A DNA stretch of 64,000 bases. It comes from Actinomycetales bacterium. Lineage in GTDB: Bacteria > Actinomycetota > Actinomycetes > Actinomycetales > Microbacteriaceae. Both the position numbers and the translations under genes were made by a program. Within the stretch, counting starts at the first letter, position 1. Each line of letters begins with the position of its first letter. The notes beneath the pieces are model-generated. The model made no database searches. It saw only the letters and a program-made list of their open reading frames with translations, and was not told where the DNA came from. Below, piece by piece: positions 7,216-64,000 of this stretch. Location of the stretch: NCBI GenBank assembly GCA_015655415.1, contig JAATFB010000088.1, forward strand, positions 1-64,000. The letters are read 5' to 3'.

Positions 7216-7218
7216 GTC

Positions 7219-7247
7219 TTGACATTGATCATCCGGTCTCGCAAGAT
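7219..7247 (+). promoter_or_regulatory. Promoter candidate for the importer operon
   Basis: A consensus TTGACA (-35, 7219-7224) is followed after 17 bp by CAAGAT (-10, 7242-7247). The -10 is weak (3 of 6). The ATTGATCAT operator-like 9-mer begins at the last base of the -35, so bound regulator would block the promoter. Confidence 0.5.
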
Positions 7248-7294
7248 GATTCGAGGTCGCCGCGGTCGGCGGCTGTCAACTGATCGGAGTTTCA

Positions 7295-18388: not shown

Positions 18389-19639
18389 ATGAACACCTTC
18401 GACAACCCGTGGCGTCCGCGCACCGACCTGCGCATCACGTCCGTTCGCGCCATCGTCACCGCCCCCGAGGGCACCCCCCTCGTGGTGGTGCGGATCGACA
18501 CCGACGAGCCGGGGCTCTACGGCCTCGGCTGCGCGACCTTCACCCAGCGCTGGATGGCGGTGCGCTCGTTCGTCGACGACCATGTCGCCCGACTCCTGAT
18601 CGGCCGCTACCCCGGCGACATCGGCGACCTCGTCCGACTGGTCGGCTTCAGCGGCTACTGGCGGGGCGGCCCCGTGACGAACAACGCGATCTCCGGCGTC
18701 GACCAGGCGCTCTGGGACATCGCGGGCAAGCGCGCGGGCATGCCCGTGTACGAGCTTCTGGGCGGGAAGGTGCGCGCTGCGGCAGACACATACCTGCACG
18801 CAGCAGGCCGCACGATCGACGAGGCGCTGGACGATGCCGAACGTCTGATCGAGCGCGGCCAGCGGCACGTCCGCCTGCAGCTGTCCACCCCCGGCGGCGG
18901 CGGATACGGGGCGCCGGCGGTTCCGACCGAGTACCCGGACGCGCCGTACCGGAACGGCTGGAGCGCTCGTGACTACCTGCGTCGCACGCCGGCGCTCTTC
19001 GAGGCCGCCCGAGAACGGCTGCCCGAGCGCATCGAGCTGCTGCACGACGTGCACTCCAGACTGACGCCGAAGGATGCCGTGTGGCTCGCTCGGGCGCTCG
19101 AGCCATACCGGCTGTTCTTCCTTGAGGACGTGCTGCCGCCGGAGCACTGGGACCGGCTGCCGGAGGTCCGCGCCGCCAGCCCCGTTCCGATCGCGGTCGG
19201 CGAGCTGACCACGTCCTTCCAGGACGCCGCGCGGCTCATCCAGCGCGGGGGCGTCGACCTCATCCGCAGCCATCTCTCCGACGTCGGCGGCCTCAGCGCC
19301 GGTCGGAGACTCGCCGACCTCGCCGAGGCCAACGGCGTGCGCACGGCCTGGCACGGCCCGGGTGACACCTCGCCGATCGGCGCGGCGGCCAACGTGACGC
19401 TGGACGTGGTGTCGCCGGCGTTCGGCATCCAGGAGGGACACGTCTACAACGATGCGACGCACGAGGTCTTCCCGGGTACCCTACGTATCGAGAACGGCTG
19501 GCTGACGCCGAACGACGCGCCGGGGTGGGGTATCGACATCGACGAGAGCGCGGCGGCCAGGTATCCGGCCGGTCTCTCGGGGCACGATGCCTGGGCTGCG
19601 GGGGTGCGTCGACCTGATGGCGCGCTGGAGGCCCCATGA
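18389..19639 (+). CDS. Mannonate dehydratase-like enolase-superfamily enzyme (ManD/RspA type)
   Basis: 416 aa from ATG 18389; AGAGAG lies six bases upstream. The capping domain (1-130) is followed by a barrel with metal ligands D220 (LLHDVHS), E246 (FLED) and E272 (VGEL), and the ManD-specific WHGPGDTSPIGAAANVTLD loop. The long insert rich in glycine and proline near 165-195 (STPGGGGYGAPAVP) is also typical. Family members dehydrate D-mannonate or D-gluconate to 2-keto-3-deoxygluconate; several homologues have little activity. A sugar acid from the importer or the preceding dehydrogenase is the likely substrate. Confidence 0.85.
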   Translation: MNTFDNPWRPRTDLRITSVRAIVTAPEGTPLVVVRIDTDEPGLYGLGCATFTQRWMAVRSFVDDHVARLLIGRYPGDIGDLVRLVGFSGYWRGGPVTNNAISGVDQALWDIAGKRAGMPVYELLGGKVRAAADTYLHAAGRTIDEALDDAERLIERGQRHVRLQLSTPGGGGYGAPAVPTEYPDAPYRNGWSARDYLRRTPALFEAARERLPERIELLHDVHSRLTPKDAVWLARALEPYRLFFLEDVLPPEHWDRLPEVRAASPVPIAVGELTTSFQDAARLIQRGGVDLIRSHLSDVGGLSAGRRLADLAEANGVRTAWHGPGDTSPIGAAANVTLDVVSPAFGIQEGHVYNDATHEVFPGTLRIENGWLTPNDAPGWGIDIDESAAARYPAGLSGHDAWAAGVRRPDGALEAP

Positions 19640-29194: not shown

Positions 29195-29198
29195 CGGA

Positions 29199-29229
29199 GG
29201 CCGCGCCCGCGAGGCGGACGGGCGCGGCC
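29199..29229 (+). terminator. Hairpin terminator candidate after the ThDP enzyme
   Basis: GGCCGCGCCCG (29199-29209) and CGGGCGCGGCC (29219-29229) form a perfect 11-bp stem with a 9-nt loop, five bases after the stop codon. No U tract follows. It insulates the enzyme gene from the importer promoter. Confidence 0.6.
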
Positions 29230-29253
29230 GCATCGGCGGACCGCTTATATGAC

Positions 29254-29265
29254 AGAAGCGCTTCC
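29254..29265. promoter_or_regulatory. LacI-type operator AGAAGCGCTTCC before the third sugar importer
   Basis: GAAGCGCTTC (29255-29264) is a perfect 10-bp palindrome with the central CG of LacI/GalR operators, and it follows directly on an AT-rich TTATAT. It lies 93 bp before the binding-protein start. No LacI-family gene adjoins this operon, so the regulator is probably encoded elsewhere. Confidence 0.6.
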
Positions 29266-29357
29266 ACTGACAACCCCTGCACTCTCGCGCCGGAACGCCG
29301 TTGTCTGGATGATGTCCGGCCATTCGCCGGCGCCACCGCGCCACCAAGGAGTTGCCC

Positions 29358-30731
29358 ATGTCCGCCCGTACCCGCGTCGTCGCGGCCGTCTCCGTTCCCC
29401 TGCTCGCCGCCGGGCTCCTCGCCGGATGCAGCTCGGCCTCCACAGGAGGCTCCGACTCGTTCTCCACGAACGCCTCGGGCACGCTGAAGGCGTGGGCGTT
29501 CGACAACGCGGACGACGTCGGCAAGGCCCGGCTCTCCTACGCCAAGAGCCGCCTGAAGGGCGTCGACATCCAGCTCGACCAGACGACGTTCGACGCTCAG
29601 AAGTTCACCACGCGTGTCGCCAGCGGCAACGTCCCCGACGTGGTCCAGATGGACGCTCAGTTCGTCGCGACCTACGCGGCTCAGGGCCTCATCGCTCCGC
29701 TCGACAAGTGCTACGCCGCGCATCACGTCTCGCCGTCGGGCACGTTCTACCCGTCGGTCAAGGACGACGTGACGTACAAGGGCCACATCTGGGCCGTCCC
29801 GCAGTTCTACCAGCCTCCGGCGATCATCCTGAACACCCGCGTCATGCAGAAGGCGGGCGTCACGCCCGAGGACATCGACACCGCGCAGCCGGACCGGCTG
29901 ATCGCAGCCATCAAGAAGATGTACGTCGAACGCGGCGGCAAGCCTGTGACGCTGGGACTGGACCCGGTCGCGTCGGGCCAGCCGGGCCTGTGGATCCTGG
30001 GCTATGGGGGTCAGCTCATCGACGGCTCCGGCAAGCCGACGCTGGACGACCCGAAGAACGTCACGGGCCTTCAGGTGCTCAAGCGCATCTACGACGCGCA
30101 GGGCGGGTACGCGGCAGACAAGAGCTTCACCGACACGTTCGACACCTTCGGAAAGAAGAACCAGTTCGTCACCGATCAGGTGGGCGCACAGGTCGACAAC
30201 CAGTGGTACGTGAACGTGCTCACGCCCTACATCAAGCAGGTGCAGATCAGCGCGGTGCCGTTCCGCGGCCCCGACGGCAAGCCTTTCACCGTCTCCAGCG
30301 GCTCGGCCTTCGTCATTCCCGCCGGCGCGAAGAACAAGGACGCCGCCTGCGCGTGGGCGCTCGACCTGGACGGCATGGGCGCCTGGAAGGCGGCCGCCGC
30401 GGCGAGGGCGAAGACGCTGAAGGCGACGCCCGGCTCGGTGAACACCGGCCTGTTCACCGGCGAGCCCGCCGCCGACAAGTACATTCGGCGCACCTATGTC
30501 GTCCCCAGCGGGAATGCCGGCTTCGACAAGACGATCGACACCTTCTACGACGTGGTCGCAAGCGGCAAGTCCATCGGCACCTCCCCGGCGGGGCAGCAGA
30601 TCCAGACCGAGTTGCAGAACGCGTTGCAGTCCGCCCTCCTGGGATCCAAGTCCCCGGCGGCAGCGCTGAAGGACGCGCAGAGCGCTGCGATGACGGCATA
30701 CCGTCAGGCCGTCAAGGACTCGGGCAAGTGA
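29358..30731 (+). CDS. Sugar ABC transporter substrate-binding lipoprotein
   Basis: 457 aa from ATG 29358, which has AAGGAG seven bases upstream (a TTG six bases earlier is less likely). Signal peptide with lipobox LAGC, Cys24. Family 1 binding-protein features: FDAQKFTTRVASGNVPDVVQMDAQF, LIAPLDKCY, YKGHIWAVPQFYQPPAIILNTRVM. Two extra cysteines in the mature part (in DKCYAAHH and AACAWALD) could form a disulfide. It delivers a carbohydrate to the permeases that follow; the ligand cannot be told from sequence. Controlled by a LacI-type operator. Confidence 0.91.
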   Translation: MSARTRVVAAVSVPLLAAGLLAGCSSASTGGSDSFSTNASGTLKAWAFDNADDVGKARLSYAKSRLKGVDIQLDQTTFDAQKFTTRVASGNVPDVVQMDAQFVATYAAQGLIAPLDKCYAAHHVSPSGTFYPSVKDDVTYKGHIWAVPQFYQPPAIILNTRVMQKAGVTPEDIDTAQPDRLIAAIKKMYVERGGKPVTLGLDPVASGQPGLWILGYGGQLIDGSGKPTLDDPKNVTGLQVLKRIYDAQGGYAADKSFTDTFDTFGKKNQFVTDQVGAQVDNQWYVNVLTPYIKQVQISAVPFRGPDGKPFTVSSGSAFVIPAGAKNKDAACAWALDLDGMGAWKAAAAARAKTLKATPGSVNTGLFTGEPAADKYIRRTYVVPSGNAGFDKTIDTFYDVVASGKSIGTSPAGQQIQTELQNALQSALLGSKSPAAALKDAQSAAMTAYRQAVKDSGK

Positions 30732-31702
30732 TGTCCAGCTCCCAGGCGCTGCGGCGCGCCGCCTCCGCTCGCCGGCTTCCACCGGGCACTCGGGCAACGC
30801 GTCGTTCCTTGCAGCGTCGCAGGGAGGCCGTGGCCGGATACCTGTTCATCAGCCCCTGGATCGTCGGCTTCCTGGTGTTCACGGCCGGCTCGATGATCTA
30901 CAGCCTGGTGATCTCGTTCACGAGATACAACCTGGCGACCGGATCGGTGACTCCTGCGGGCGTCTCCAATTATGCGGAGCTCTTCCAGGATCCGAAGGTC
31001 GCGCAATCCCTGGGCAACACGCTCTTCTACGCTGTGCTCGCCGTGCCGTCGGAGATCGTGTTCGCCCTGCTCCTGGCGCTGCTCCTCAGCAAGGTCGGGC
31101 GCGGGTCGGGGTTCTTCCGCACCGTGTTCTACCTGCCGAAGATGACGCCGGTGGTGGCGACGGCGTCGGTGTTCCTGCTGCTGTTGAACGGGAACACCGG
31201 CGCCATCAACGCCTTCCTGGGGGTCTTCGGCATCCGCGGCCCGCAGTGGCTCGTCGACCCGCACTGGGTCATCCCCTCGATCGTGCTGATGACCCTGTGG
31301 GGCGTCAGCGGCACCATGGTGATCTTCCTGGCGGCGCTCAACGACGTGCCGCGCGACCTGTATGAGGTGGCGTCGCTGGATGGCGCCGGCCCCGTGCGCA
31401 AGTTCTTCGCCATCACGCTGCCGATGATCTCGGGTGCGCTCTTCTTCAACATCGTGGTGCTGACGATCGCTGCGTTCCAGGTGTTCGACCAGGCGTACCT
31501 GCTGTTCTGGCGTGACCAGACGAACGCATCGCCGAGCTCGTCGCTGTTCTACGCCGTGTACCTCTTCCAGCAGGCGTTCCGGCAGTTCGACTTCGGGTTC
31601 GCCTCGGCGATGGCATGGCTGCTGTTCCTGATCATCATGGCGATCACCGTGGTCCAGGTGCGGCTCAGCAACCGGTTCGTGTACTACGAGGAGGGGCGCT
31701 GA
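30731..31702 (+). CDS. Sugar ABC transporter permease (MalF-like)
   Basis: 323 aa from ATG 30731, overlapping the binding-protein stop by one base (TGATG). An arginine-rich N-terminal tail of about 33 residues precedes six predicted helices (first one YLFISPWIVGFLVFTAGSMI). The EAA loop at about 212 is divergent (EVASLDGAG, with Val and Ser in place of the two alanines) but keeps the essential glycine. It is followed by VRKFFAITLPMISG. Pairs with the next gene product. Confidence 0.91.
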   Translation: MSSSQALRRAASARRLPPGTRATRRSLQRRREAVAGYLFISPWIVGFLVFTAGSMIYSLVISFTRYNLATGSVTPAGVSNYAELFQDPKVAQSLGNTLFYAVLAVPSEIVFALLLALLLSKVGRGSGFFRTVFYLPKMTPVVATASVFLLLLNGNTGAINAFLGVFGIRGPQWLVDPHWVIPSIVLMTLWGVSGTMVIFLAALNDVPRDLYEVASLDGAGPVRKFFAITLPMISGALFFNIVVLTIAAFQVFDQAYLLFWRDQTNASPSSSLFYAVYLFQQAFRQFDFGFASAMAWLLFLIIMAITVVQVRLSNRFVYYEEGR

Positions 31703-53131: not shown

Positions 53132-54007
53132 CTACTTGACGGCACCACCGGTCACCCCGCTCGCTATGAAGCGCTGCGCTGCGAGGAGGAGCGCGATCGC
53201 GGGGATCGAGGCGAGTCCCGCGGTGGCCATCACCTGGCTCCAGTTCTCGTTCGTGGAGCTGAGGTACTCGAAGATGCCGAGCGTGATCGGCCGCACCTTG
53301 GGTGTCGTCGTCAGCGTCAGGGCGAACAGGAAGTCGCTCCACGCGAACAGGAAGGTGAACAGGCCGGCGGTGACGAGCGCGTTTCGCGACACCGGGATGA
53401 CGACCGACCAGAAGGCGCGGAACGAGCTGGCTCCGTCCACCCACGCGGCCTCGATGATTTCGGTCGGGATGTTCGACATGAACGCCCGCATCAGGATGAT
53501 CGCGAAGGGTATCCCGGCGCTCGCGTCGGCGAGGATCAGTCCGGGTATCGAGTCGAGCAGCCCGAGGTCGTTGAACGCCGGGTACAGCGCGTTGGCCACG
53601 ACGATCCCCGGGATCATCTGGGTGATGAGGATGAGGAACAGCACGATGTCGACCATGCGGCCCGGCGACCGCGACAGCGCATACGCCGCTGGGGTGGCGA
53701 TGGCAAGGCTCAGGACGACGCTCCCGATGGCGACGAGCAGGCTGGTCACGAGGTTCGGTCCCTGTGCGCCGATGACCTCGATGTAGGCGGAGAGCTGCGC
53801 GTTCCACGGGAACCAGTTCGCCTCGATGGCGCCGTTGATCGGCTGCAGCGACACGTTGATCATCCAGTACACCGGGAAGAGCATGACGACCATGATGAGG
53901 ATGCCGATCACCAGGTTGGCCCAGCGCCGGCCCCTCGGCCGCTGCCGGTGCGGCGCGTCGCCGCGCCTCTGCCCGCCGAGCGGACGACTGGCGGTGAGCT
54001 CAGACAT
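53132..54007 (-). CDS. Sugar ABC transporter permease (MalG-like)
   Basis: 291 aa. First helix at about 33-53 (VIGILIMVVMLFPVYWMINVS), six helices in all. The EAA loop is EAAWVDGAS at about 186, with tryptophan in place of the usual arginine, followed by FRAFWSVVIPVSRNALV. The C-terminus AAQRFIASGVTGGAVK is typical. It overlaps the MalF-like gene by 8 bp. Third gene of a leftward importer operon whose promoter region carries the LacI palindrome. Confidence 0.91.
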   Translation of the reverse strand: MSELTASRPLGGQRRGDAPHRQRPRGRRWANLVIGILIMVVMLFPVYWMINVSLQPINGAIEANWFPWNAQLSAYIEVIGAQGPNLVTSLLVAIGSVVLSLAIATPAAYALSRSPGRMVDIVLFLILITQMIPGIVVANALYPAFNDLGLLDSIPGLILADASAGIPFAIILMRAFMSNIPTEIIEAAWVDGASSFRAFWSVVIPVSRNALVTAGLFTFLFAWSDFLFALTLTTTPKVRPITLGIFEYLSSTNENWSQVMATAGLASIPAIALLLAAQRFIASGVTGGAVK

Positions 54008-54959
54008 TGCTGCTCCTGCGGCTGAGTCGGAGATAGATGACGGCGAAGATCAGGCTGACCACTAGCAGCACGTTGCCCATGGCCGACCCCTGCCCGAAGT
54101 CGAACAACGAGAACGACAGCTGGTACGAGCGGGTCGCGATCGTCTGGGTCGCGTTCGCCGGGCCTCCGTCGGTCAGTCCCAGGATGATGTCGATCACCTT
54201 GAGGGTGTAGACCACGCCGAGCACGAGCACGACATCGGTGACGGGGCGCAGCAACGGCCAGGTGACGTGTCGGAACGCCTTCCACCCGGTTGCGCCGTCG
54301 AGTGCCGCCGCCTCGTACAGCTCCGTAGGGATCTCCTGCAGGCCGCCGTAGAGGATCACCGCGTTGAAGGGTATGCCCACCCAGATGCACACCAGGATCA
54401 CCGAGCCGAGGGCGAGGCTGGGACTGGTGAGCCAGGAGACCGGGCCCGGGGTGATGTGGAGACCGACCAGGAACTCGTTCAGCACGCCCGAGTCCTGGTC
54501 GAGGATCCACTTCCACACCGCGCTGGAGACGATGAGCGGCAGCAGCCACGGCAGGAGCAGCAACGAGCGCAGCAGTCCGTTCAGCGGGAACCTCTGCTTG
54601 AAGAAGAGGGCGAGGAGCAGCCCCAGCCCGAACTGGCCGACGATGCACCCGACCGTGAAGATGGCGGTGTTGACGATGGTCGTGCCGAACACCTGCGACT
54701 GGATGACGGCGATGTAGTTGCTCAGGCCCACCCACGGCGCCTCGCCCGTGTAGAACGTCGCTGTCGTGTAGTGCTGGAAGCTCATCGTGATGTTCTTCAC
54801 GATGGGATACCCGAAGAACAGCGCGAGGTAGACGGCCGCAGGCAGGAAGTAGATCCAGCGGACGGTGAAGGTGAGGAGCGTGCGCCGTCGTCGCCGGACC
54901 ACCTCTCGGGGTCCGGCGACGACGCCGTTCACGCCCGCCTGTGCGGTGCCCACCGACAT
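54000..54959 (-). CDS. Sugar ABC transporter permease (MalF-like)
   Basis: 319 aa, starting three bases after the binding-protein stop. An arginine-rich tail (REVVRRRRRTLL) precedes the first helix. The cytoplasmic loop EAAALDGAT at about 216 is the ATPase-docking EAA motif, followed by GWKAFRHVTWPLLRPVTD. DIILGLTDGGPANATQTI is the family's conserved periplasmic stretch. Partner of the MalG-like subunit; no ATPase gene is linked. Confidence 0.91.
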   Translation of the reverse strand: MSVGTAQAGVNGVVAGPREVVRRRRRTLLTFTVRWIYFLPAAVYLALFFGYPIVKNITMSFQHYTTATFYTGEAPWVGLSNYIAVIQSQVFGTTIVNTAIFTVGCIVGQFGLGLLLALFFKQRFPLNGLLRSLLLLPWLLPLIVSSAVWKWILDQDSGVLNEFLVGLHITPGPVSWLTSPSLALGSVILVCIWVGIPFNAVILYGGLQEIPTELYEAAALDGATGWKAFRHVTWPLLRPVTDVVLVLGVVYTLKVIDIILGLTDGGPANATQTIATRSYQLSFSLFDFGQGSAMGNVLLVVSLIFAVIYLRLSRRSSNV

Positions 54960-54962
54960 CCG

Positions 54963-56207
54963 TTACTTGATGCTCTGCGCGGCGCTCGAAAGGGCGTCCG
55001 ACGGCGAGCTTTTCCCGCTGAGCGCCGCCTGGATCGCCTGGAACAGCGCGGCCTCGGTCTTCGGCCACGCGTCGCCCAGCTTGGCGGTGCGGGAACGCCA
55101 CCCGGAGGATCCCTCGGTGAACGACTTCAGCTCGGGGTTGTCATTTCCGAACTTCTCGAGCAGTGCTGTCTTCGCCGGCACCGAGTTCTCGGCCTTGGCC
55201 AGGCTCAGCTGCGTGGTGTCGCCGACGATGCAGCTGACCACCTTGCTGACCGCCTTCTGATTGCCGGTGTCCTTCGTGCGAGGTGCGGTCGCGACGACTC
55301 CGCCGAGCGGCAGCTGCACGGTCTGCCCGGCTCTCGGCGTGGGGATGGGCACGACGCCGTAGTGCAGGTCGGGCTGCTTGGCGAGGACGGGGATGTTCCA
55401 GGCGCCGTTCACCTGCATGGCGGCCTTTCCGGCCATGAACTGGCTGTTCGCGTCCGACTGGCTCCAGTTCACCACGCCCTTCGACGCCGACCCGTCGTCG
55501 ACCAGGTCGGTCCAGTACTGCAATGCCTGCACGACCTGCGGCGAGTCGATCTTGGTCTCGCTCCCGCCGTTGGTCCACATGAAGGGCAGGAACTGCCACG
55601 GCGCCTCGGTCTGGGTGCCGCCGGAGAACGCGACCCCGTAGGTCGACCCGTTGGTGAGCTTCTGGGCGTCGGCCTTCAGCTCGTCCCAGGTCGTCGGCGG
55701 CTGCAGGCCCGCTGCGCTGAACAGGTCTTTGTTGTAGAACAGCGCGATGCTGGCCGCCGTGGGCTGCAGCCCGTAGACCTTGCCTTTGTATGTTCCGGTG
55801 GAGAGGATCCCCTTGGGGTAGCCGGAGGTGCTCACTCCGAGGTCGGTGAGCGGCTGCAGCGCACCGGCTGCGGCAACCTGCTGCAGCGTCGGGTTGTCGA
55901 GCATCAGGATGTCGGGGAGGGTCTTGGCAGATGCCTGCTGCAGCACCTTCTGGATGATGGAGGTGGGTGCGACGGCGGTGCGCTTGATGGTGACCCCGGC
56001 CTTCGCGCCGCAACGCTTCATGATGTCGTCGTAGGCGGTGTTGTCGGGATCGGCGGTGAAGTAGTCCTCCTCCGTGAGGGTCACCTTTCCGCCCGAGGAG
56101 CCGCCGCTGCCTCCGGACGACGAGCACGCCGTGAGCAGGCTGGGCAGCATCAACGCCGCCGCAGTCACCACCACGAAGCGCGTCGTCTTCCTGCTTCTAC
56201 TCATCAT
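54963..56207 (-). CDS. Sugar ABC transporter substrate-binding lipoprotein
   Basis: 414 aa from the tandem ATG at 56207/56204. Signal peptide MMSRSRKTTRFVVV... with lipobox LTAC, Cys28, and a serine/glycine linker. Family 1 features: DILMLDNPTLQQVAAAGALQPL, GKVYGLQPTAASIALFYNKDLF, PPTTWDELKADAQ and FMAGKAAMQVNGAW. Two further cysteines (in KRCGAKAG and SCIVGD) may pair. It is the first gene of the leftward importer. A 14-bp palindrome identical to the one in front of the CoA-transferase operon lies 105 bp upstream. Confidence 0.92.
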   Translation of the reverse strand: MMSRSRKTTRFVVVTAAALMLPSLLTACSSSGGSGGSSGGKVTLTEEDYFTADPDNTAYDDIMKRCGAKAGVTIKRTAVAPTSIIQKVLQQASAKTLPDILMLDNPTLQQVAAAGALQPLTDLGVSTSGYPKGILSTGTYKGKVYGLQPTAASIALFYNKDLFSAAGLQPPTTWDELKADAQKLTNGSTYGVAFSGGTQTEAPWQFLPFMWTNGGSETKIDSPQVVQALQYWTDLVDDGSASKGVVNWSQSDANSQFMAGKAAMQVNGAWNIPVLAKQPDLHYGVVPIPTPRAGQTVQLPLGGVVATAPRTKDTGNQKAVSKVVSCIVGDTTQLSLAKAENSVPAKTALLEKFGNDNPELKSFTEGSSGWRSRTAKLGDAWPKTEAALFQAIQAALSGKSSPSDALSSAAQSIK

Positions 56208-56410: not shown

Positions 56411-57499
56411 TCACGCGCTCTGGCGCAGAACGACCTCGAAGCCCACGTCGATGCGCTGCGGCATGAAGTCGGGCTCGGTCATCCCGCGCAGTAGCAGGCG
56501 CCCGGCCTCCGTCCCGATCGCACGGTTGGGAACGGCGACGGTGGTGAGCGCCGGCGAGATGTGCCTGGCGATCTCGAAGTCCCCGAAGCCGGTGACCCCC
56601 AGCTGCTCCGGCACCTTGACGCCCGATTGCTGGAACTCGAAGAGGGCGCCCGCGGCGAAGATGTCGCTCGAGAACATCAGCACGTCGGTCTCCGGATGCT
56701 CGGCCAGCACTCGGCGCGAGAGCTCTCTGCCCGTCTCGAACTCGACCTCGCGTGCGCCCGCGTTGACGATGCGCACGGGCTCGCCAGGGAGGAGTTCTCG
56801 CACGGCGAGCTCGAAGCTCTTGCTGCGCTCGACCGCCCGGGTGTCGCCCTCCCGGATGGAACCGGCGAAGGTCGGATGACGATAGCCCTTCTCGACGACC
56901 GCCTGCGTGATCGCGTGGACCGCCGCGATGTTCGAGAACCCGACGACGCTGCCGATCGGGTTCGGCGTGAGGCTCCAGCCCTCGACCACGGGTATCGCCG
57001 ACTGCAGCAGGAGGTGAGTCGTCGTCTCGGTGTGCGCCGTGCCGACGATGAAGAAGCCGTCCGGCCGACGTCCCAGGAACGTGCGGGTCAGCTGCTCCTC
57101 CTGGTCGAGGTCGTAGTCCGTCGATCCGATGAAGAGGTGGTACCCGTGAGGGCTCAGCACCTCGTCGAGGCCGTGCAGGACATCGGCGAAGATCGAGGTC
57201 GAGATCGCCGGGATGAGCACCGCGACCGTCATCGAGCGGTTCGATGCGAGGCTGCTCGCTGTGAGGTTGGGCACGTAGCCCGTGGCGGCGATTGACCGTT
57301 GCACGCGCTCGTAGGTCTCTCGCGAGACGAGGTGCGGGGTCCGCAGCGTTCGTGAGACCGTCTGGGGTGCGACGCCGGCGTGGCGCGCCACGTCCGACAT
57401 CGTCGGCCGCAGCGTCGACCTGCTGGTCAGCCGCCGTCGGTCGCCGGCCTCGCCGTCCGACGAAGGCGCGCCGTGCGGTCCCTCGCCTCTTCCGGTCAC
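56411..57499 (-). CDS. LacI family transcriptional regulator
   Basis: 362 aa. A disordered 30-residue N-terminus precedes the LacI HTH: MSDVARHAGVAPQTVSRTLR, hinge region ending in NLTASSLASNRSMTVAVLIP near 80-97. The effector domain is a type I periplasmic-binding fold (ISTSIFADVLHGLDEVLSPHGYHLFIG, FFIVGTAHTE, TDVLMFSSDIFAAGALFEFQQ, LGVTGFGDFEIARHISPALTTV). It probably represses the leftward importer, the rightward CoA-transferase operon and itself through the two identical palindromes. Ligand unknown, presumably the imported sugar or a product. Confidence 0.93.
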   Translation of the reverse strand: MTGRGEGPHGAPSSDGEAGDRRRLTSRSTLRPTMSDVARHAGVAPQTVSRTLRTPHLVSRETYERVQRSIAATGYVPNLTASSLASNRSMTVAVLIPAISTSIFADVLHGLDEVLSPHGYHLFIGSTDYDLDQEEQLTRTFLGRRPDGFFIVGTAHTETTTHLLLQSAIPVVEGWSLTPNPIGSVVGFSNIAAVHAITQAVVEKGYRHPTFAGSIREGDTRAVERSKSFELAVRELLPGEPVRIVNAGAREVEFETGRELSRRVLAEHPETDVLMFSSDIFAAGALFEFQQSGVKVPEQLGVTGFGDFEIARHISPALTTVAVPNRAIGTEAGRLLLRGMTEPDFMPQRIDVGFEVVLRQSA

Positions 57500-57630: not shown

Positions 57631-58782
57631 ATGGCACGCGAAGAAGCGCATCGGCCGCCCGGCCAGGCCACCGGACTCGTTCCCGAGCCCGACCCGCCGG
57701 TGCGGGTGCGCTCGCATGCCATCGGGTGCATCGGTGCCGGCATGATCATGGCGGACGTGCAGCTGGTGGCCTACCGCGAGGCCGGATTCCCGGTCGTCGC
57801 CATCGCGTCCAGGAACCCGGCGCACGCGTCCGCCGTCGCCGCGCGACACGGGATCGGGACCGTGCACCGCACACCGCGCGAACTCATCGCCGACGAGCGC
57901 GTGGAGATCGTCGACATCGCCTTCCCGCCCGATCGGCAGCCCGAGCTGGTCCGGCTGGCCCTGCGTCAGCCGCACGTGAAGGCGGTGCTCGCTCAGAAGC
58001 CCTTGGCCCTGACCCTCGCTGAGGCCGTGGCCCTGAGGGATGAGGCGGCTGCGACCGGCACCGTGCTCTCGGTGAACCAGAACATGCGCTACGACCAGTC
58101 GGTGCGGGTGCTGGGGCAGCTGCTGGAGGCGGGCATCCTCGGGGATCCGGTGTTCGCGAGCATCGACATGCGCGCCGTCCCGCACTGGCAGGGCTTCCTG
58201 GCCGGGTACGAGCGCCTCACCATCGCCAACATGAGCGTGCACCACCTCGACGCGCTGCGGTACCTGTTCGGCGAAGCGGTCGAGATCTCCACCATGGGAC
58301 GTCCTGATCCGCGCACGGCGTTCCCGCACAGCGACGGCATCGTCGTCTCCTCCATCCGCTTCGCCAGCGGCGTTCTCGCGTCGTCGATCGAGGACGTGTG
58401 GGCGGGGCCGAGGTCAGGACGAGCGGCCCCGGCCGACTACATCCGCTGGCGGGTGGAGGGCACGGACGGCATCGCCGAAGGCACGCTGGGCTGGAGCGCC
58501 GACGCGCCGTCCACGCTGCGCTACATGTCGCCGACCGCCACCGTCGGTGAGTGGATCACGCCGACGTGGACGGGCAAGTGGTTTCCGCAGGCGTTCATCG
58601 GCGTCATGGAGCAGCTGCAGTTCGCCGTCGAGACGGGTCGGGAACCGGCCCTGAGCATCGACGACAACCTGCGGAGCCTGGCTCTCGTCGAGGCGGCCTA
58701 CCGGTCGCTTCGCGAGGCCCGGGTGGTGCGGTTGAGCGAGTTCGACGATGCGGTGGGTGCCGTACGAGGAAGGGATCGATGA
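57631..58782 (+). CDS. Gfo/Idh/MocA family oxidoreductase
   Basis: 383 aa, first gene of the LacI-controlled rightward operon. After a 30-residue polar extension comes the Rossmann domain (HAIGCIGAGMIMADVQ, a GxGxxxxxxV motif). The family lysine lies in LAQKPLALT near 130, where AQKP replaces the usual EKP. NQNMRYDQSVR, NMSVHHLDALRYLFGE with the catalytic histidine, and TDGIAEGTLGW complete the fold. It probably oxidises the imported sugar or polyol. ATG may be leaderless; an internal start at MIMADV is unlikely because it would remove the cofactor motif. Confidence 0.87.
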   Translation: MAREEAHRPPGQATGLVPEPDPPVRVRSHAIGCIGAGMIMADVQLVAYREAGFPVVAIASRNPAHASAVAARHGIGTVHRTPRELIADERVEIVDIAFPPDRQPELVRLALRQPHVKAVLAQKPLALTLAEAVALRDEAAATGTVLSVNQNMRYDQSVRVLGQLLEAGILGDPVFASIDMRAVPHWQGFLAGYERLTIANMSVHHLDALRYLFGEAVEISTMGRPDPRTAFPHSDGIVVSSIRFASGVLASSIEDVWAGPRSGRAAPADYIRWRVEGTDGIAEGTLGWSADAPSTLRYMSPTATVGEWITPTWTGKWFPQAFIGVMEQLQFAVETGREPALSIDDNLRSLALVEAAYRSLREARVVRLSEFDDAVGAVRGRDR

Positions 58783-58786
58783 GGCG

Positions 58787-59563
58787 ATGAGCGCGATCGA
58801 CGATGGCAGCAGGGCCGGCATGGCACGAGGGACCGTCCTCGTGACGGGCGCCGGAGGCTCGCTGGGGCGGGCGATCTGCCGGCGTCTCGGCGCCGACGGA
58901 TATGCCGTCGCGGCCCTGGGGCGCCCGAGCGCGCAGCTCGAGGCGACAGCGCAACTGCTGACGGACGCGGGCGTGCGCGCGACGAGGCTCGATGTCGACC
59001 TTCGTGACGCCGATCGAATCCGGTGGGCCGTGTCCGAGGCCGAGAGCCGGCTCGGCGCTCTGGAGGCCGTCGTCAACAACGCCGCCATCTACCCGCCGAC
59101 GCCCTTCCTTCGCATTCCCCTCGAGGAATACGAAGACGTCGTCGCCGTGAACCAACGCGCCTACTTCGTCGGCTCGCAGGCGGCAGCTGCGCTGATGGCG
59201 CCGCGCGGCCGCGGAAGCATCGTCAACGTCGGATCGATCACGTGGCACGGCGGGTGGTCCAACCTGGCCAGCTACGTCTCGACGAAGGGCGCGGCGGTCG
59301 GCCTGACCAGAGCCCTCGCACGCGAGCTCGGACCGGATGGCCTGCGCGTCAACGCGGTGTCTCCTGGTGCCTTCCCGACGAAGGCGGAGGAGATTCAGGG
59401 CGACCCCGAGGAGTACACGCGCTTCGTGCTCGACCACCAGGCGGTGAAACGGCGGGGCCGACCCGACGAGCTCGCCGCGGTGGTCTCCTGGCTGATCGGG
59501 CCCGATTCGAGCTTCGTGACAGGGCAGACCATCAACGTCGACGGCGGATGGATCATGGAATGA
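58787..59563 (+). CDS. SDR family oxidoreductase
   Basis: 258 aa from ATG 58787, four bases after the upstream stop; ATG 58820 is an alternative that begins closer to the core. Motifs: TGAGGSLGRAIC, VVNNAAIYPP (NNA present), serine in NVGSITWHGG and Y-V-S-T-K. SPGAFPTKAEEIQGDPEEYTRFV is characteristic of sugar and polyol dehydrogenases in this family, and VTGQTINVDGGWIM closes it. Likely performs a second oxidation on the same substrate as the Gfo/Idh/MocA enzyme, or acts on a lactone-derived acid. Confidence 0.88.
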   Translation: MSAIDDGSRAGMARGTVLVTGAGGSLGRAICRRLGADGYAVAALGRPSAQLEATAQLLTDAGVRATRLDVDLRDADRIRWAVSEAESRLGALEAVVNNAAIYPPTPFLRIPLEEYEDVVAVNQRAYFVGSQAAAALMAPRGRGSIVNVGSITWHGGWSNLASYVSTKGAAVGLTRALARELGPDGLRVNAVSPGAFPTKAEEIQGDPEEYTRFVLDHQAVKRRGRPDELAAVVSWLIGPDSSFVTGQTINVDGGWIME

Positions 59564-60690
59564 GCGACGAAAAGCTCCTCGTCGCCGGGCGCCGCCTCAC
59601 CAGAGCTCAGCTCGAAGAGCGCACCGGCGACCTCGCCTCGGTCGCGGGAATCCGCACCGTCGTGTTCGACGACGGAGTCGAGCGCGGTGTGAGGGCGATC
59701 GTCGTGCGCACGTCCTCCGGCCTCGAGTTCGAGGTCCTGGCAGACCGCGCCTTCGACATCGGCTCCGCTCGATACCGTGGTCGCCCGTTCGGATGGCGGT
59801 CGGGTAACGGATTCCGTCACCCGGGCCTGCACGACAACTGCGACGAGGACGGCCTCTCATGGCTCAGGTCGCTCGACGGCCTGCTGGTGACCGGAGGGCT
59901 CGACCATACGCTGTTCGGGGCGACCGTCGACGCCAGCGGCTACCACTACCCGCCGAAGCCCACGGTCACGCACGGACTCCACGGAAGGCTCACCGGAATC
60001 CCCGGCCGGATCCTCGAGGCCCGGGAGGTGAGCGTGGACGGGAGGCCGGTGCTGCGGGTGGTCGGCGAGGTGACGCAGGCGACCTCCTTCGGAGAGCATC
60101 TGAGGCTCACCCGGACCATAGAGGCGGATCTGGACGGCACCGAGATCCGGTTCAGCGACGAGGTCGAGAATCTCGGCTTCGAGTCGACGCCGCACATGCT
60201 CCTGTATCACCTCAACGTCGGCTGGCCGTACCTCGACGAGGGGGCCGAGCTGGTCGCACCGATCCGCTCGCACCTGTGGCGGTCGGACTCGGTCGTCGAG
60301 CAGGGCGTGGGATACCGGGTCATGCCCGGCCCACGGAAGGGGTTCGTCGAGCAGGTCACCGAGCATGAGCTGATCGCCGCCGATGACGGAAGGCACCGCG
60401 TCGCGCTCGTGTCGGCGGACCGCCTCGACGGGGTGGAGATCTCCTGGGACGCGGCGGGGATGCCGTGCTTCTTCCAATGGCAGAACCTGCGCTCCGGTCA
60501 GTACGCTCTCGGCTTCGAGCCGTCCACTCACCACGTCGGCGGGGATCAGACGGCGCGCGACGACGGCTCGATGATCTGGCTCGAACACGGCGACACGGCC
60601 TCCTACCGCACGACCGTGGCCGTGCTCGACGGCGAGAGCGAGACGGCGTCCGCGGTGGCGCGCATTCGCGCCGTGGGAGATCAGCCGTGA
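59560..60690 (+). CDS. DUF4432 family protein (aldose 1-epimerase-like fold)
   Basis: 376 aa, ATGA-coupled to the SDR. The family is a beta-sandwich related to galactose mutarotase: LEFEVLADRAFDIGSARYRGRPFGWRS, GLLVTGGLDHTLFGA, THGLHGRLTGIPGRIL with a histidine typical of the active site, and LYHLNVGWPYLDEGAELVAP. Members accompany sugar-catabolic genes and are thought to act on anomers of sugars or sugar derivatives; direct biochemistry is scarce. Here it would feed the dehydrogenases with the right anomer. Confidence 0.8.
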   Translation: MSDEKLLVAGRRLTRAQLEERTGDLASVAGIRTVVFDDGVERGVRAIVVRTSSGLEFEVLADRAFDIGSARYRGRPFGWRSGNGFRHPGLHDNCDEDGLSWLRSLDGLLVTGGLDHTLFGATVDASGYHYPPKPTVTHGLHGRLTGIPGRILEAREVSVDGRPVLRVVGEVTQATSFGEHLRLTRTIEADLDGTEIRFSDEVENLGFESTPHMLLYHLNVGWPYLDEGAELVAPIRSHLWRSDSVVEQGVGYRVMPGPRKGFVEQVTEHELIAADDGRHRVALVSADRLDGVEISWDAAGMPCFFQWQNLRSGQYALGFEPSTHHVGGDQTARDDGSMIWLEHGDTASYRTTVAVLDGESETASAVARIRAVGDQP

Positions 60691-60733
60691 CGGAGGTCCG
60701 CGACGGCATCGGCCCGGCGGAGAAGGGCCGGCG

Positions 60734-61966
60734 ATGAACGACGACGAGCGCACGCAGCGCGGGATCCTCGACGGGGTCAGGGTGATCGACTGCTCGATCG
60801 CGATGGCCGGACCGTTCGCCGCGCAGCGGCTGGGTGACCTCGGCGCCGATGTGATCAAGGTCGAACCGCCGCAGGGCGAATGGCAGCGGTATTCCGCATC
60901 AGGGGGAGCGACGGGCAACCGCATCAACGTCTCGTTCCTCTCCCTCAACCGCAACAAGCGATCCATCGCGATCGACCTCAAGAGCGAACGCGGACGATCG
61001 GTGCTGCTCGAGCTGGTGAAGTCGGCTGACGTGTTCCTCCAGAACTACCGGCCGGGCGTCGCGGCCCGCCTCGGGATCGACTACGACGCGCTGCGGGCGC
61101 AGCGGCCGGACATCGTGTACGCCTCCATCTCGGGATACGGCGAGGACGGCCCCTATCGCGACCGGCCTGGCCAGGACCTGCTGCTGCAGGCCATGAGCGG
61201 CGCGATGCTCTCGGCCGGGCGAGCGGGCCAGCCTCCGCAGCCGGCCGGCCAGTACCTCGTCGACGCCGTCACCGCCTCGACCGCGTTCGAGGGCATCCTC
61301 GCCGCGCTGTTCCACCGTGAGCGGACCGGCGAGGGCCAGTTGGTGACCGTGAACATGCTCGACGCGATCACCACCCTGCAGATGCAGGAGCTGTCGGTGT
61401 TCACCGTGGGGCACGTCCCGCAGGTGCGCAGCGCCGAGCCGCACGCCCACGTCTACATCCGCGCGCCGTACGGGGCTTTCGCCACCACGGACGGCTTCAT
61501 CGTCGTGGCCATGCCGAGTCTTCCCGAGCTCGGTCGGGCCATCGGCGAGCCGAGCTTCCTCGAGATGGACGCTGAGGTGCACGGCTGGACCCATCGCGAC
61601 GAGATCTACCGCAAGACCGCCGCTCGGCTGAAGGCCGAGACGACCGAGCACTGGCTCGGGCTGTTCGCCGGCACGTCGATCTGGGCCGGTCCGGTCTACG
61701 ACTACGAGCGGCTGCTGAACGATCCGCAGATCAAGCACAACGGGACCTTCGTCGAGTACGAGCATCCGACTGAGGGGGTCGTGGTCACGCCGGGATTCCC
61801 CTACGGGTTCTCGACGACCCCGCCCAGGGTCTACCGCGGGGCTCCGCTCGCCGGGGAGCACACACGCGAGATCCTCGCCTCGATCGGTCTGTCCGATAAC
61901 GAGGTCGATGACCTGGTCGCGTCCGGCGCGGTCGTCGAGGGCGAGCCCGCCGTGCTGGACGAGTGA
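60734..61966 (+). CDS. CaiB/BaiF family CoA-transferase
   Basis: 410 aa, the standard single-domain length. The N-terminus GVRVIDCSIAMAGPFAAQRLGDLGADVIKVEPP is diagnostic of class III CoA-transferases, and the catalytic aspartate is D148 in YRDRPGQDLLLQAMSG. NRNKRSIAIDLKSERGR and RPGVAARLGIDYDAL follow the family closely. The enzyme moves CoA between acyl-CoA and a carboxylic acid through a covalent aspartyl anhydride. In this operon it presumably activates a sugar-acid-derived carboxylate, an unusual step for sugar catabolism. The 43-bp upstream gap has GAGAAGGG as ribosome site. Confidence 0.92.
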   Translation: MNDDERTQRGILDGVRVIDCSIAMAGPFAAQRLGDLGADVIKVEPPQGEWQRYSASGGATGNRINVSFLSLNRNKRSIAIDLKSERGRSVLLELVKSADVFLQNYRPGVAARLGIDYDALRAQRPDIVYASISGYGEDGPYRDRPGQDLLLQAMSGAMLSAGRAGQPPQPAGQYLVDAVTASTAFEGILAALFHRERTGEGQLVTVNMLDAITTLQMQELSVFTVGHVPQVRSAEPHAHVYIRAPYGAFATTDGFIVVAMPSLPELGRAIGEPSFLEMDAEVHGWTHRDEIYRKTAARLKAETTEHWLGLFAGTSIWAGPVYDYERLLNDPQIKHNGTFVEYEHPTEGVVVTPGFPYGFSTTPPRVYRGAPLAGEHTREILASIGLSDNEVDDLVASGAVVEGEPAVLDE

Positions 61967-61978
61967 GACGAGGTCGGA

Positions 61979-63100
61979 ATGGCTCTTAAAGGACTCACCT
62001 GGGACCACCCGCGCGGCTGGGCCAGCCTGCGCGAGGCGTCCCGCCTGCCCGAGTGGTCCGACCTCGGGCTCACCTGGCAGGCTCAACCCCTCGAAGGCTT
62101 CGAGTCCGCATCTCTGGAGGCGCTCGCGGAAGAATACGACCTGCTCGTGATCGACCATCCCCATCTCGGCGAGGCCGACTCGAGCGGGGCGTTGCGTCCC
62201 CTCGACGGGCTGTTCGATCCGGCCACGTCGTCAGCGTGGCGCGTCGGGACCGTGGGCGCGTCGTACGACTCCTACCGCCTGGGCGGCCGGCAGCTGGCGC
62301 TCCCGATCGACGCGTCGGCGCAGGTCGCCGCGTACCGGCGCGACCTCGTCGCCCGTGACCAGCTGCCCGCGACGTGGGACGAGGCCGTCGTGTTCGCAGG
62401 GACGCATCGCGTCGCGCTCTCCCTCGCCGGCCCGCACGCGCTGCTCAGCTTCGCCTCCATCTGCGTCGCCCTCGGCGAGCGCCCCGGAGGCGATCCTGAG
62501 CGGTTCATCTCTCGTTCGATGGCGCTCCACGTGCTCGGACTGATGCGATCGCTGAACTCCGCCACGGAGGCCATCGACGACAACCCCATCGGCCTCCTCG
62601 AGCGCATGTCGCGTGACCCGTCGCCCTCCGGCATCTCCTACTGTCCGCTGGTCTTCGGGTACGTGGGCTACAGCCGCGGGCGCCTGCGATTCGCCGATGC
62701 TCCGGCCGGGGCCGGCGGTGGTCGTGGCTCGACGCTCGGAGGCACCGGCATCGCGCTGTCGCACCGCTGTGATCCGACGCCGGCGCTCCTAGGGTTCCTG
62801 AGCTGGCTCATGGGCGATGAGGCCCAGGTGGGCTTCATCCCTCGGCACGAGGGACAGCCGGCATCGCGAGCGGCATGGGATGACGACCTGGTCAACCGGG
62901 CCGCGCACGGCTTCTACCACGACGTCCTCAGCACGGTCGAGGACGCCTGGGTGCGGCCGCAGTATGACGGCTTCGTGCGCTTCCAGTCCGCCGCCTCGCA
63001 GGTGATCCGCGCCCACCTGTGCGATGTGATCGAAGCCGACCGCGCGGTGGAATCCATCGAGTCGGACTATCGCCGGTCTCGCAAGGGGGTCATCTCATGA
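61979..63100 (+). CDS. Solute-binding-protein-like protein without signal peptide (cytosolic)
   Basis: 373 aa. The sequence is recognisably a family 1 ABC solute-binding-protein fold: YDLLVIDHPHLGEADSSGALRPL, LALPIDASAQVAAYRRDLV and LPATWDEAVVFAGTHRV correspond to the PDVV, ALPLDxxxxxLYYRKDLF and PKTWDEL motifs. But it begins MALKGLTWDHPRGWASL with no signal peptide, lipobox or membrane segment. It is between a CoA-transferase and an enoyl-CoA-hydratase gene, coupled to the latter by ATGA. The role is unknown; a cytosolic ligand carrier or sensor is possible. Similar signal-less proteins, as far as I recall, occur near CoA-transferases in other bacteria. Confidence 0.75.
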   Translation: MALKGLTWDHPRGWASLREASRLPEWSDLGLTWQAQPLEGFESASLEALAEEYDLLVIDHPHLGEADSSGALRPLDGLFDPATSSAWRVGTVGASYDSYRLGGRQLALPIDASAQVAAYRRDLVARDQLPATWDEAVVFAGTHRVALSLAGPHALLSFASICVALGERPGGDPERFISRSMALHVLGLMRSLNSATEAIDDNPIGLLERMSRDPSPSGISYCPLVFGYVGYSRGRLRFADAPAGAGGGRGSTLGGTGIALSHRCDPTPALLGFLSWLMGDEAQVGFIPRHEGQPASRAAWDDDLVNRAAHGFYHDVLSTVEDAWVRPQYDGFVRFQSAASQVIRAHLCDVIEADRAVESIESDYRRSRKGVIS

Positions 63101-63891
63101 ACGGCGTCGCGCTGCCCGACCACCCCGTCGAGCTCGGCATCGAGGTGGACGGCGCCGTCCTCACGATCACGCTCAACCGTCCGCGGAAGCTCAACTCCGT
63201 CACCGAGGAGATGTCGGCCGCGCTCGTCGCGGCCGCGACCTGGGCGAACGAGCACGACGCGATACGGGCGATCGTGCTCACCGGGGCCGGGGATCGAGCC
63301 TTCTGCGCCGGCTCGGACATCGCCGGGCTCGATGGATACGAGACGCCATGGCAGTTCGACCGACGACACGACTACTGCGACGCGTTGCGACTCGTCACCA
63401 AGCCGATGATCGCGGCGGTCAACGGCTACGCCTTCGGCGGCGGCCTGGAGACGGCGCTGTGCTGCGACATCCGGCTCGCATCGGAGACCGCGAGCTTCGC
63501 GGCGTCCGAGATCAAGCTCGGCTGGATCGGCGGAGGCGGGGTCTCGTCGTTGCTCGCCCACTCGATCGGCCCGAGCAACGCGGCGCTCATGCTCATGACG
63601 GGGGACCCGATCGACGCCAGACGCGCTCTCGGCTGGGGACTCGTCACCGAGATCGTCCCGCCGCAGCGGCTGCGGGCCAGGGCCGCGGCACTCGCCGCGA
63701 CGATCGCGTCTCGCCCGCCGATAGCCGCAGAGATGGCCAAGGCCAACCTGCGCGCGGCGTTCAACATGCCGCAGAGCCAGGCGCTCGAGTTCGAGCGGCA
63801 CCTGCAGACCGTCGCGTTCGCCACACAGGACGCCACGGAGGGCCGGCGAGCTTTCGCGGAGCGGCGCGACGGTGTCTTCACGAAGCGTTGA
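63097..63891 (+). CDS. Enoyl-CoA hydratase/isomerase family protein
   Basis: 264 aa from ATG 63097, ATGA-coupled. The crotonase fold is clear: ITLNRPRKLNSVTEEM, oxyanion hole residues in DRAFCAGSDI and NGYAFGGGLE, and CDIRLASETASFAASEIKLGWIGGGG with one likely catalytic glutamate (SEIKLG). The second glutamate of true hydratases, expected in the SLAMEMVLTGD region, is replaced (NAALMLMTGD), so hydrolase, lyase, decarboxylase or isomerase chemistry is more likely than simple hydration. It would act on the thioester formed by the adjacent CoA-transferase. Confidence 0.88.
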   Translation: MNGVALPDHPVELGIEVDGAVLTITLNRPRKLNSVTEEMSAALVAAATWANEHDAIRAIVLTGAGDRAFCAGSDIAGLDGYETPWQFDRRHDYCDALRLVTKPMIAAVNGYAFGGGLETALCCDIRLASETASFAASEIKLGWIGGGGVSSLLAHSIGPSNAALMLMTGDPIDARRALGWGLVTEIVPPQRLRARAAALAATIASRPPIAAEMAKANLRAAFNMPQSQALEFERHLQTVAFATQDATEGRRAFAERRDGVFTKR

Positions 63892-63920
63892 GCAGCGTTC
63901 CACCACCCCGGGAGCAGACG

Positions 63921-64000
63921 ATGGCAGTGCATGAATGGTTCGGCGATCCGGCCGACGCCCTCCCCGATGACCGATTCGCGGGCACCCTCGTGGGGCGGGC
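63921..64000 (+). CDS. Start of an unidentified gene (cut by window edge)
   Basis: ATG 63921 follows a GGGAG site and 29 bp after the hydratase-family stop on the same strand, so the operon continues. Only 26 residues are visible (MAVHEWFGDPADALPD, then RFAGTLVGRA). A 'LPxD...GTLVGR' start is reminiscent of fumarylacetoacetate-hydrolase-like sugar-acid dehydratases, but so little sequence is present that this is a guess. Confidence 0.5.
   Translation, partial: MAVHEWFGDPADALPDDRFAGTLVGR

Follow-up and report, generated by a model that had tools for sequence, protein, structure and literature searches.

A Candidate CoA-Linked Sugar-Acid Dehydration Module with a Signal-Less Sugar-Binding Protein in a Microbacteriaceae Operon

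What do a CoA-transferase and an enoyl-CoA-hydratase-type enzyme do in a sugar operon? The question is raised by six genes at positions 57631–63891 of a 64,000-nucleotide stretch of DNA from an Actinomycetales bacterium of the family Microbacteriaceae (assembly GCA_015655415.1, contig JAATFB010000088.1). This stretch, hereafter the window, makes up the leading 64 kb of a contig 176 kb long. In the non-phosphorylative sugar routes known so far, it is the free aldonate that loses water, by the action of IlvD/EDD, enolase-superfamily or altronate-type enzymes. The reading of an ordinary dehydratase step was rejected for this operon, as no IlvD, altronate-type or enolase-superfamily protein was found among the operon proteins scanned. 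We propose, at slightly better than an even chance, that an aldonate is dehydrated in CoA-linked form to 2-keto-3-deoxypentonate (KDP) by the CoA-transferase and the hydratase, and that a FAH-family protein and an aldehyde dehydrogenase then lead to 2-oxoglutarate. A sugar-binding protein without a signal peptide, encoded between the two CoA enzymes, would take part inside the cell.

Operon Layout

The operon genes under discussion are as follows:

57631..58782, + strand: Gfo/Idh/MocA dehydrogenase (GFO1), probable sugar oxidation (Pfam)
58787..59563, + strand: SDR dehydrogenase (SDR1); start 58787 inferred, start in the list of open reading frames 58748
59560..60690, + strand: DUF4432, aldose-1-epimerase-like protein (1e-84); ATGA overlap with SDR1
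60734..61966, + strand: family III (CaiB/BaiF) CoA-transferase (CoA_transf_3, 1.2e-106)
61979..63100, + strand: signal-less sugar-binding-protein fold with N-terminal TWDHPRG motif (SBP_bac_1, 9e-8)
63097..63891, + strand: crotonase-fold hydratase/dehydratase (ECH_1, 1.1e-60); ATGA overlap with the binding-protein gene
63921..64000, + strand: 5′ part of a gene for a putative KDP-dehydratase-type FAH protein, extending to about position 65105 of the contig (L035:7922-9106)
L035:9151-10665, beyond the window end, same operon: aldehyde dehydrogenase, after the FAH gene

The open reading frame list and a Pfam scan confirmed the six genes as consecutive and all on the + strand, with the families named in the preliminary description. 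Its statement that they are mostly coupled by ATGA was too broad: such overlaps occur only at two of the five junctions, SDR1/DUF4432 (59560) and binding protein/hydratase (63097), the other three being gaps of about 4, 43 and 12 nt (with the inferred SDR1 start). The operon passes position 64000 and continues with the FAH and aldehyde dehydrogenase genes, a second Gfo/Idh gene, a xylose-isomerase-like TIM barrel and a second SDR gene.

Catalytic Residues of the CoA Enzymes

The CoA-transferase matches CoA_transf_3 over its whole length (profile positions 1–366 of 366). Asp177 is kept in every one of its 89 aligned rows; judging by its place in the alignment and by the equivalence to formyl-CoA transferase, we take it to be the catalytic aspartate carrying the acyl intermediate. 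Against the NCBIfam model of the L-carnitine CoA-transferase CaiB the protein scores 145.8 bits and does not reach the cut-off of 413. Inositol, carnitine and oxalate readings of the operon were rejected, since the Gfo/Idh protein and the CoA-transferase match those NCBIfam models only far below cut-off.

The hydratase has Glu118 and Glu138, presumably the equivalents of the Glu144/Glu164 pair of the rat hydratase, in 91 of 91 aligned rows, the window's own row included, and a polar stretch (R90, D92, Y93, D95) is conserved in at least 98% of rows. The protein is predicted to be a crotonase-fold enzyme with both hydratase glutamates, and dehydration would be its reaction.

The CoA-transferase (60734-61966) is about 69–74% identical between Actinomycetota and Alphaproteobacteria; for the binding protein of the same operons the value is about 42–47%. 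The closeness of the transferases across phyla could reflect horizontal transfer or an unusually strong constraint.

The FAH and Aldehyde Dehydrogenase Tail

The FAH protein matches PDB entry 9kkt along its full length (418 bits, 382 residues), a sequence match from which no function is read. It also matches the 2-keto-3-deoxy-D-arabinonate dehydratase 2q18 (3e-16), and the motifs EIF(T/F)KA and PEPE are shared. Its E185 aligns with the residue of 2q18 that we presume to be numbered E114, and is invariant in at least 98% of 57 FAH rows; the same holds for E214, E216 and D235. By full-length similarity and this specific glutamate, the protein is predicted to be of the KDP-dehydratase type. For a COG3970 FAH protein of Herbaspirillum huttiense, Watanabe and co-workers showed dehydration of D-KDP to 2-oxoglutarate semialdehyde, with L-KDP the poorer substrate, and they name a specific glutamate (PMC6336799).

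The FAH and aldehyde dehydrogenase genes lie directly past the window edge, and therefore the CoA step most likely yields a 2-keto-3-deoxy acid by dehydration. The preliminary description had reasoned from the window that the route avoids such acids and that the CoA thioester is cleaved or rearranged. The former is probably wrong, as a putative KDP dehydratase and an aldehyde dehydrogenase come next, and the same tail makes dehydration the likelier fate of the thioester.

Conservation across Related Loci

A CoA-transferase scan of one genome each from 84,980 species yielded 398 relatives. The analysis used the best 80 of them; these are 69–78% identical, come mainly from Actinomycetota and Alphaproteobacteria with one Burkholderia, and have full flanks in 65 cases. 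Locus counts rest on tblastn and Pfam, the simple gene caller being poor on very GC-rich and AT-rich loci. The genes for CoA-transferase, binding protein and hydratase are consecutive in 61 of the 80 loci; in 18, transferase and hydratase genes are successive with no binding-protein gene between them. An FAH gene stands immediately after the hydratase gene in 48 loci, and FAH and aldehyde dehydrogenase genes are both present in 36. Directly before the CoA-transferase gene, SDR1 and DUF4432 are found in either order in 43 loci, and matches to GFO1 (61–69% identical) occur in 31. All six window genes are matched in 28 of 80 loci, and 18 of 80 keep the window's gene order with a TIM-barrel gene inserted after the Gfo/Idh gene; the six-gene grouping is more than chance. 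One locus (L061) has the CoA-transferase with no match to the hydratase, binding protein or FAH protein.

The gene order, on whose conservation elsewhere the preliminary description had staked its reading, is kept across Actinomycetota and Pseudomonadota, and its proposal that a sugar-derived carboxylate is activated with CoA gains support, as an inference, from this conserved gene set. Such sets are found on annotated plasmids of Sinorhizobium, Rhizobium, Pararhizobium, Pseudosulfitobacter, Variovorax and Streptomyces. The cluster is carried by pSymA of a Sinorhizobium medicae strain and by pSINMEB01 of S. meliloti BL225C (L040, L132), and in L040 a sugar ABC importer directly follows it.

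Exchange of the Hydratase Fold

The binding protein alone was used to search 296 genomes of the class, which, apart from the protein of the window itself, returned 14 long and strong matches (short weak matches of up to 25.7 bits were left out). A family III CoA-transferase is encoded on the same strand in all 14, at a distance between match edges of up to 130 nt in nine and of 1.8–2.4 kb in five. Six further loci came from binding proteins found in genomes whose main cluster has none, and in each of these a CoA-transferase gene lies beside the binding-protein gene. Among the resulting 20 loci from binding-protein searches, six have the crotonase-fold hydratase (L195-L197, L199, L206, L207) and ten a MaoC-type hydratase (L198, L200-L203, L235-L237, L239, L240); none has both, and four (L204, L205, L208, L238) have neither by the queries used. 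In L198, L200-L203, L235, L236, L240 and L069, the last of which belongs to the 80 CoA-transferase loci, a MaoC match follows the binding-protein gene at no more than about 100 nt, in the place that the crotonase-fold gene has in the window.

PF01575 was confirmed for four MaoC proteins at or near the binding protein or CoA-transferase (L044, L069, L198, L202), and for a second, more distant MaoC protein of L202. A D-x-x-P-x-H motif is present in seven MaoC proteins inspected; the second-type MaoC proteins of L202 and L203 showed none.

The best single exchange case for the window's own type is a Streptomyces ITFR-6 plasmid (L044), encoding a binding protein (48% identical), an FAH protein (60%) and a CoA-transferase (60%) together with a MaoC dehydratase and an aldehyde dehydrogenase. 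The 251-kb plasmid record, which alone was covered and is rich in transposase genes, gave no match to the crotonase-fold hydratase, an empty search answer that is weak by itself, and the case is a single one. Crotonase and MaoC proteins have unrelated folds; what the two share is the hydration or dehydration of CoA thioesters. That one can stand in for the other therefore argues for such a reaction.

Six added loci were surveyed with amidohydrolase and mutarotase queries from L202, which are PF04909 and rhaM by Pfam. An amidohydrolase is encoded upstream of the CoA-transferase in five of them (L236-L240), an RhaM-type mutarotase in four and a Gfo/Idh protein in four. We presume amidohydrolases of this type to be sugar lactonases; if so, these loci hold aldonate-making enzymes.

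In L204, L205 and L208 the binding-protein and CoA-transferase genes are about 1.8–1.9 kb apart, and in L204 a family I CoA-transferase gene occupies the gap. Binding protein, family I and family III CoA-transferases stand in a row with an SDR gene in the actinobacterial loci L204:7752-9515 and L205:10762-12530, the family I assignment being Pfam-tested in L204 and made by eye in L205; no hydratase was found in either by the queries used.

The Signal-Less Binding Protein

Only four open codons precede the start of the window's binding protein, and its predicted first strand comprises residues 4–8, which leaves no space for a signal peptide. TWDHPRG is exact in 77 of 90 binding proteins, the window's included, and W-x-x-P-R is found near the start in 88 of 90. 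At the chosen start, 85 of the 90 have at most 12 residues before the motif tryptophan; L050, L051 and L053 have 22–26, and L055 and L064 have an altered motif. The relatives' starts were chosen nearest to that of the window, and in only 19 of the 90 is the open stretch before the start limited to 20 codons or less.

The N-termini reach at most 1.63 on the Kyte–Doolittle scale, none of the 90 attaining 1.9. Eleven exported binding proteins used as controls range from 1.31 to 2.61, with only four attaining 1.9 (a twelfth, L038, 2695-4455, was dropped because it reads like a regulator); since the controls overlap the signal-less proteins, hydrophobicity alone is weak evidence. Judging by its sequence, the protein probably stays inside the cell.

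An AlphaFold2 model built from 43 sequences (mean pLDDT 96.4) has the fold of a complete sugar-binding protein, with the best VIA-align match to 5iai (Z 35.9, 359 residues, root-mean-square deviation 3.1). MalE, LpqY and SmoF types tie in VIA-align. By Foldseek, the match to sugar-binding proteins of this kind has a TM of about 0.8. W8, R12, D54, D59, D111, W133, Y228, Q283, Q293 and R326 are among the invariant residues, and by our reading several of these appear to fall on ligand loops of the fold. Among the structure-library rows shown there is no enzyme with such a fold, which says nothing about function, and no fusion of the binding protein to the CoA-transferase or the hydratase was noticed among 75 printed rows (lengths 339 to 439). 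Our first guess is that the protein serves as a cytosolic substrate-holding subunit, and our second that it is an enzyme derived from the binding-protein fold.

Proposed Pathway and Alternatives

In the pathway we propose, a sugar taken up from outside (most likely a pentose, or one that yields a pentonate) would be oxidized to the aldonate by the Gfo/Idh and SDR dehydrogenases with the DUF4432 protein. The CoA-transferase would form the aldonyl-CoA thioester, thereby acidifying the C2 proton, and the hydratase would take off the C3 hydroxyl as water to give the enol of 2-keto-3-deoxypentonyl-CoA. KDP would be released by transfer of the CoA, which could go, for instance, to another aldonate molecule in the manner of the carnitine CaiB/CaiD system. 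Dehydration of KDP by the FAH-family enzyme would give 2-oxoglutarate semialdehyde, to be oxidized to 2-oxoglutarate by the aldehyde dehydrogenase. The module would do the work for which the Weimberg route uses a sugar-acid dehydratase of IlvD/EDD or enolase type. The signal-less binding protein probably acts in the cytosol, binding the sugar acid for the two CoA enzymes.

The presence of canonical dehydratases near the clusters bears on this proposal. Of 50 loci with FAH and CoA-transferase genes, three (L067, L100, L106) contain a canonical sugar-acid dehydratase. For comparison we took 16 FAH loci without this CoA-transferase, 15 hand-picked from 60 listed of 321 plasmid records plus L194:

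L210 (dyad incomplete in alignment), L219, L220: enolase type
L213: L-fuconate dehydratase
L214: altronate type
L215, L217, L222: DHAD type
L212: family I CoA-transferase run
L194, L211, L216, L218, L221, L223, L224: no dehydratase by the queries used

A dehydratase-type gene is thus present, by annotation or match, in eight of the 16.

Several observations weigh against the proposed pathway. The difference between 3/50 and 8/16 (Fisher p 2.5e-4; 1.1e-3 without L210) speaks for the proposal but is descriptive only, because the comparison loci were hand-picked, have shorter flanks in 11 of 16 cases and are the source of several queries. The aldehyde dehydrogenase, closest to 3v4c and 1eyy, falls below every curated cut-off; for the NCBIfam models of 2-oxoglutarate-semialdehyde enzymes the shortfall is large. 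Its substrate is therefore assigned by gene position. An FAH gene (at least 50% identity) is absent from the sequence read around the CoA-transferase gene in 30 of the 80 loci, where the tail therefore differs or lies elsewhere; the Sinorhizobium type likewise has none. The binding protein is absent from the sequence read in 16 of 80. An enolase-superfamily match occurs in 33 of the 80 loci, in several of them, such as L078 and L099, within the same run as the CoA-transferase gene. L200 and L201 carry a FucD homologue, bearing the Asp-His dyad of FucD-type dehydratases, with a fucose-type set beside the CoA-transferase, binding-protein and MaoC genes; a dyad-bearing FucD-like gene lies in the same stretch as these three genes in L202, and L235 has a FucD homologue by match alone. 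In these four loci the module is therefore no simple replacement; two epimeric sugars using one tail could explain the co-occurrence. Lastly, another contig of the window's own genome carries an IlvD gene adjacent to a short FAH gene, with an aldehyde dehydrogenase match (L209, positions 28911-31598 of that contig), likely a canonical non-phosphorylative route elsewhere in the genome.

Two of these points can be followed further. We considered that the binding protein might be dispensable and rejected this, because in the six genomes searched for the 16 loci lacking it, the protein was found elsewhere in all six, each time beside its own CoA-transferase (two control genomes were also positive in that search). 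Regarding the enolase-superfamily matches, the Asp-His dyad, which we take to be the catalytic dyad of canonical dehydratases, is complete in four of the 33 (L066, L067, L101, L106) and represented by one residue in L119. Neither residue is present in the other 28, which are therefore probably not classical dehydratases.

In L061, L070, L071, L078, L099 and others (about 6800-7950), an enolase-superfamily protein that keeps KxK and has no Asp-His dyad is encoded upstream of the CoA-transferase. The gene of this enolase-superfamily protein is followed by one for a metallo-beta-lactamase-fold protein in L099 and by one for a Gfo/Idh protein in L078.

The best surviving alternative, which we nevertheless regard as unlikely, is that the CoA thioester serves as an epimerization handle. 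The transferase and hydratase would de- and rehydrate, or deprotonate, an aldonyl-CoA so as to change C2 or C3, and a canonical dehydratase would then make KDP. This would agree with the canonical or enolase-type enzymes close to some clusters, with the IlvD gene in the window's own genome and with IlvD-family genes in eight of eight genomes checked, a family that also serves amino-acid synthesis. However, the FAH gene right after the hydratase gene in 48 of 80 loci and a canonical dehydratase within the stretch in only three of 50 FAH loci argue against such an intervening step.

It is also rather improbable that the CoA enzymes serve a different small acid, a by-product or co-substrate, and are present in the sugar operon for another reason. 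The fucose-type sets of L200 and L201, where the sugar route seems complete without CoA, point in this direction, as do the best-scoring named relatives of the CoA-transferase, which use dicarboxylic acids and all match far below cut-offs. However, the FAH/aldehyde dehydrogenase tail leaves no small acid over, and the binding protein, which is predicted to have a full sugar-binding-protein fold, accompanies a CoA-transferase in 20 of 20 binding-protein search loci.

Very unlikely, finally, is carbon–carbon cleavage, a fate that the preliminary description had named together with rearrangement. Here Gfo/Idh or SDR would make a 3-keto acid, the transferase would activate it and the hydratase-family enzyme would cleave it hydrolytically or by a retro-aldol or retro-Claisen reaction. 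The cluster has two dehydrogenases, some crotonase family members do cleavage chemistry, and a deoxyribonyl-CoA of Klebsiella is proposed, in the accessible text of its description, to be oxidized and then thiolytically cleaved (PMC6365646), but no row of the 91 lacks either hydratase glutamate, MaoC-fold enzymes occupy the same slot and the FAH/aldehyde dehydrogenase tail requires an intact five-carbon chain.

Beyond the CoA-linked dehydration to KDP proposed for the window, we speculate that CoA-dependent sugar-acid dehydratases are widespread and assembled from unrelated parts, namely a family III, perhaps also a family I, CoA-transferase and a crotonase or MaoC hydratase. The family III versions would be served in cis or in trans by a cytosolic signal-less binding protein acting as substrate-holding subunit or enzyme. 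This generalization is tentative, and we think it more doubtful than probable.

Runs of Gfo/Idh, family I CoA-transferase, crotonase-fold hydratase and aldehyde dehydrogenase genes were observed on plasmids of Peteryoungia (L212:8488-13346), Roseibium and Ciceribacter (L225:7989-12856, L226:8000-13000), the Roseibium run having annotated LacI and sugar ABC genes. Such a run is possibly another sugar-CoA module. In L212 an FAH gene stands together with these genes; none was found within about 9 kb of the same run in the relatives L225 and L226, and none of the three loci has the window-type binding protein by the query used. L212 was therefore rejected as an independent copy of the whole pathway, as its relatives keep the run without FAH and no binding protein is present. 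It may be only a parallel sugar-CoA module with FAH there by accident.

Genes Surrounding the Operon

The following genes precede the operon on the opposite strand:

56411..57499, − strand: LacI-family regulator, nearest GntR-type, divergent from the operon
54963..56207, − strand: exported sugar-binding protein of an ABC importer with a lipobox-like LLTAC signal, in contrast to the signal-less protein of the operon
54000..54959, − strand: ABC permease 1 (Pfam)
53132..54007, − strand: ABC permease 2 (Pfam)

Two more enolase-superfamily genes lie in the window about 38–54 kb from the operon (3842-4468 on the − strand and 18977-19549 on the + strand).

Significance and Comparison with Known Systems

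If the proposed pathway is true, bacteria of at least two phyla apply fatty-acid and carnitine chemistry in place of the known aldonate dehydratases. Sugar operons that apparently lack a dehydratase would then be accounted for, and biotechnology would be offered a dehydratase without an iron-sulphur cluster. With a conserved sugar-binding protein lacking a signal peptide, one of the largest bacterial protein families would have gained a new role.

The preliminary description put the pathway forward as a candidate for an undescribed one, and we likewise found no description of the gene set by title or abstract in the open-access literature, with subscription journals mostly outside the search. 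Nor was any open-access paper found on xylonyl-, arabinonyl-, gluconyl-, ribonyl-, pentonyl- or aldonyl-CoA.

The carnitine CaiB/CaiD system, in which CoA is handed from product to substrate, combines a family III CoA-transferase with a crotonase-fold dehydratase acting on a 3-hydroxy acid, as would the window. Unlike it, the window has a sugar operon, a putative KDP-dehydratase-type FAH protein, an aldehyde dehydrogenase and an extra binding protein, and its transferase stays at 145.8 bits against the CaiB cut-off of 413.

With the Weimberg, or non-phosphorylative pentose, route the operon shares sugar dehydrogenases at the head and, by prediction, a tail of FAH-family KDP dehydratase and aldehyde dehydrogenase (PMC6336799). 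In contrast to it, the window's run has no IlvD/EDD, altronate-type or canonical enolase-type dehydratase and carries the CoA-transferase, binding-protein and hydratase genes instead.

The Klebsiella michiganensis deoxyribonyl-CoA route, the only proposed sugar-acid CoA thioester that the literature search returned, is similar in that a sugar acid is proposed as a CoA thioester. It differs in using a CoA-synthetase, a hydroxyacyl-CoA dehydrogenase and a thiolase on a deoxy sugar, and the accessible part of its description names neither a binding protein nor KDP (PMC6365646).

The signal-less protein shares its whole predicted fold with the MalE/SmoF-type binding proteins of ABC importers and differs from them in lacking a signal peptide, in its TWDHPRG-type start and in being genetically tied to CoA-transferases. 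Cyclohexadienyl dehydratase, named in the accessible part of PMC7683729 with enzymes evolved from solute-binding proteins, is a precedent for such a fold turned enzyme, with a different substrate. Taken against these systems, the gene set most likely represents a route of Weimberg type in which the acid is dehydrated much as by CaiB/CaiD and to which a sugar-binding protein lacking a signal peptide has been added.

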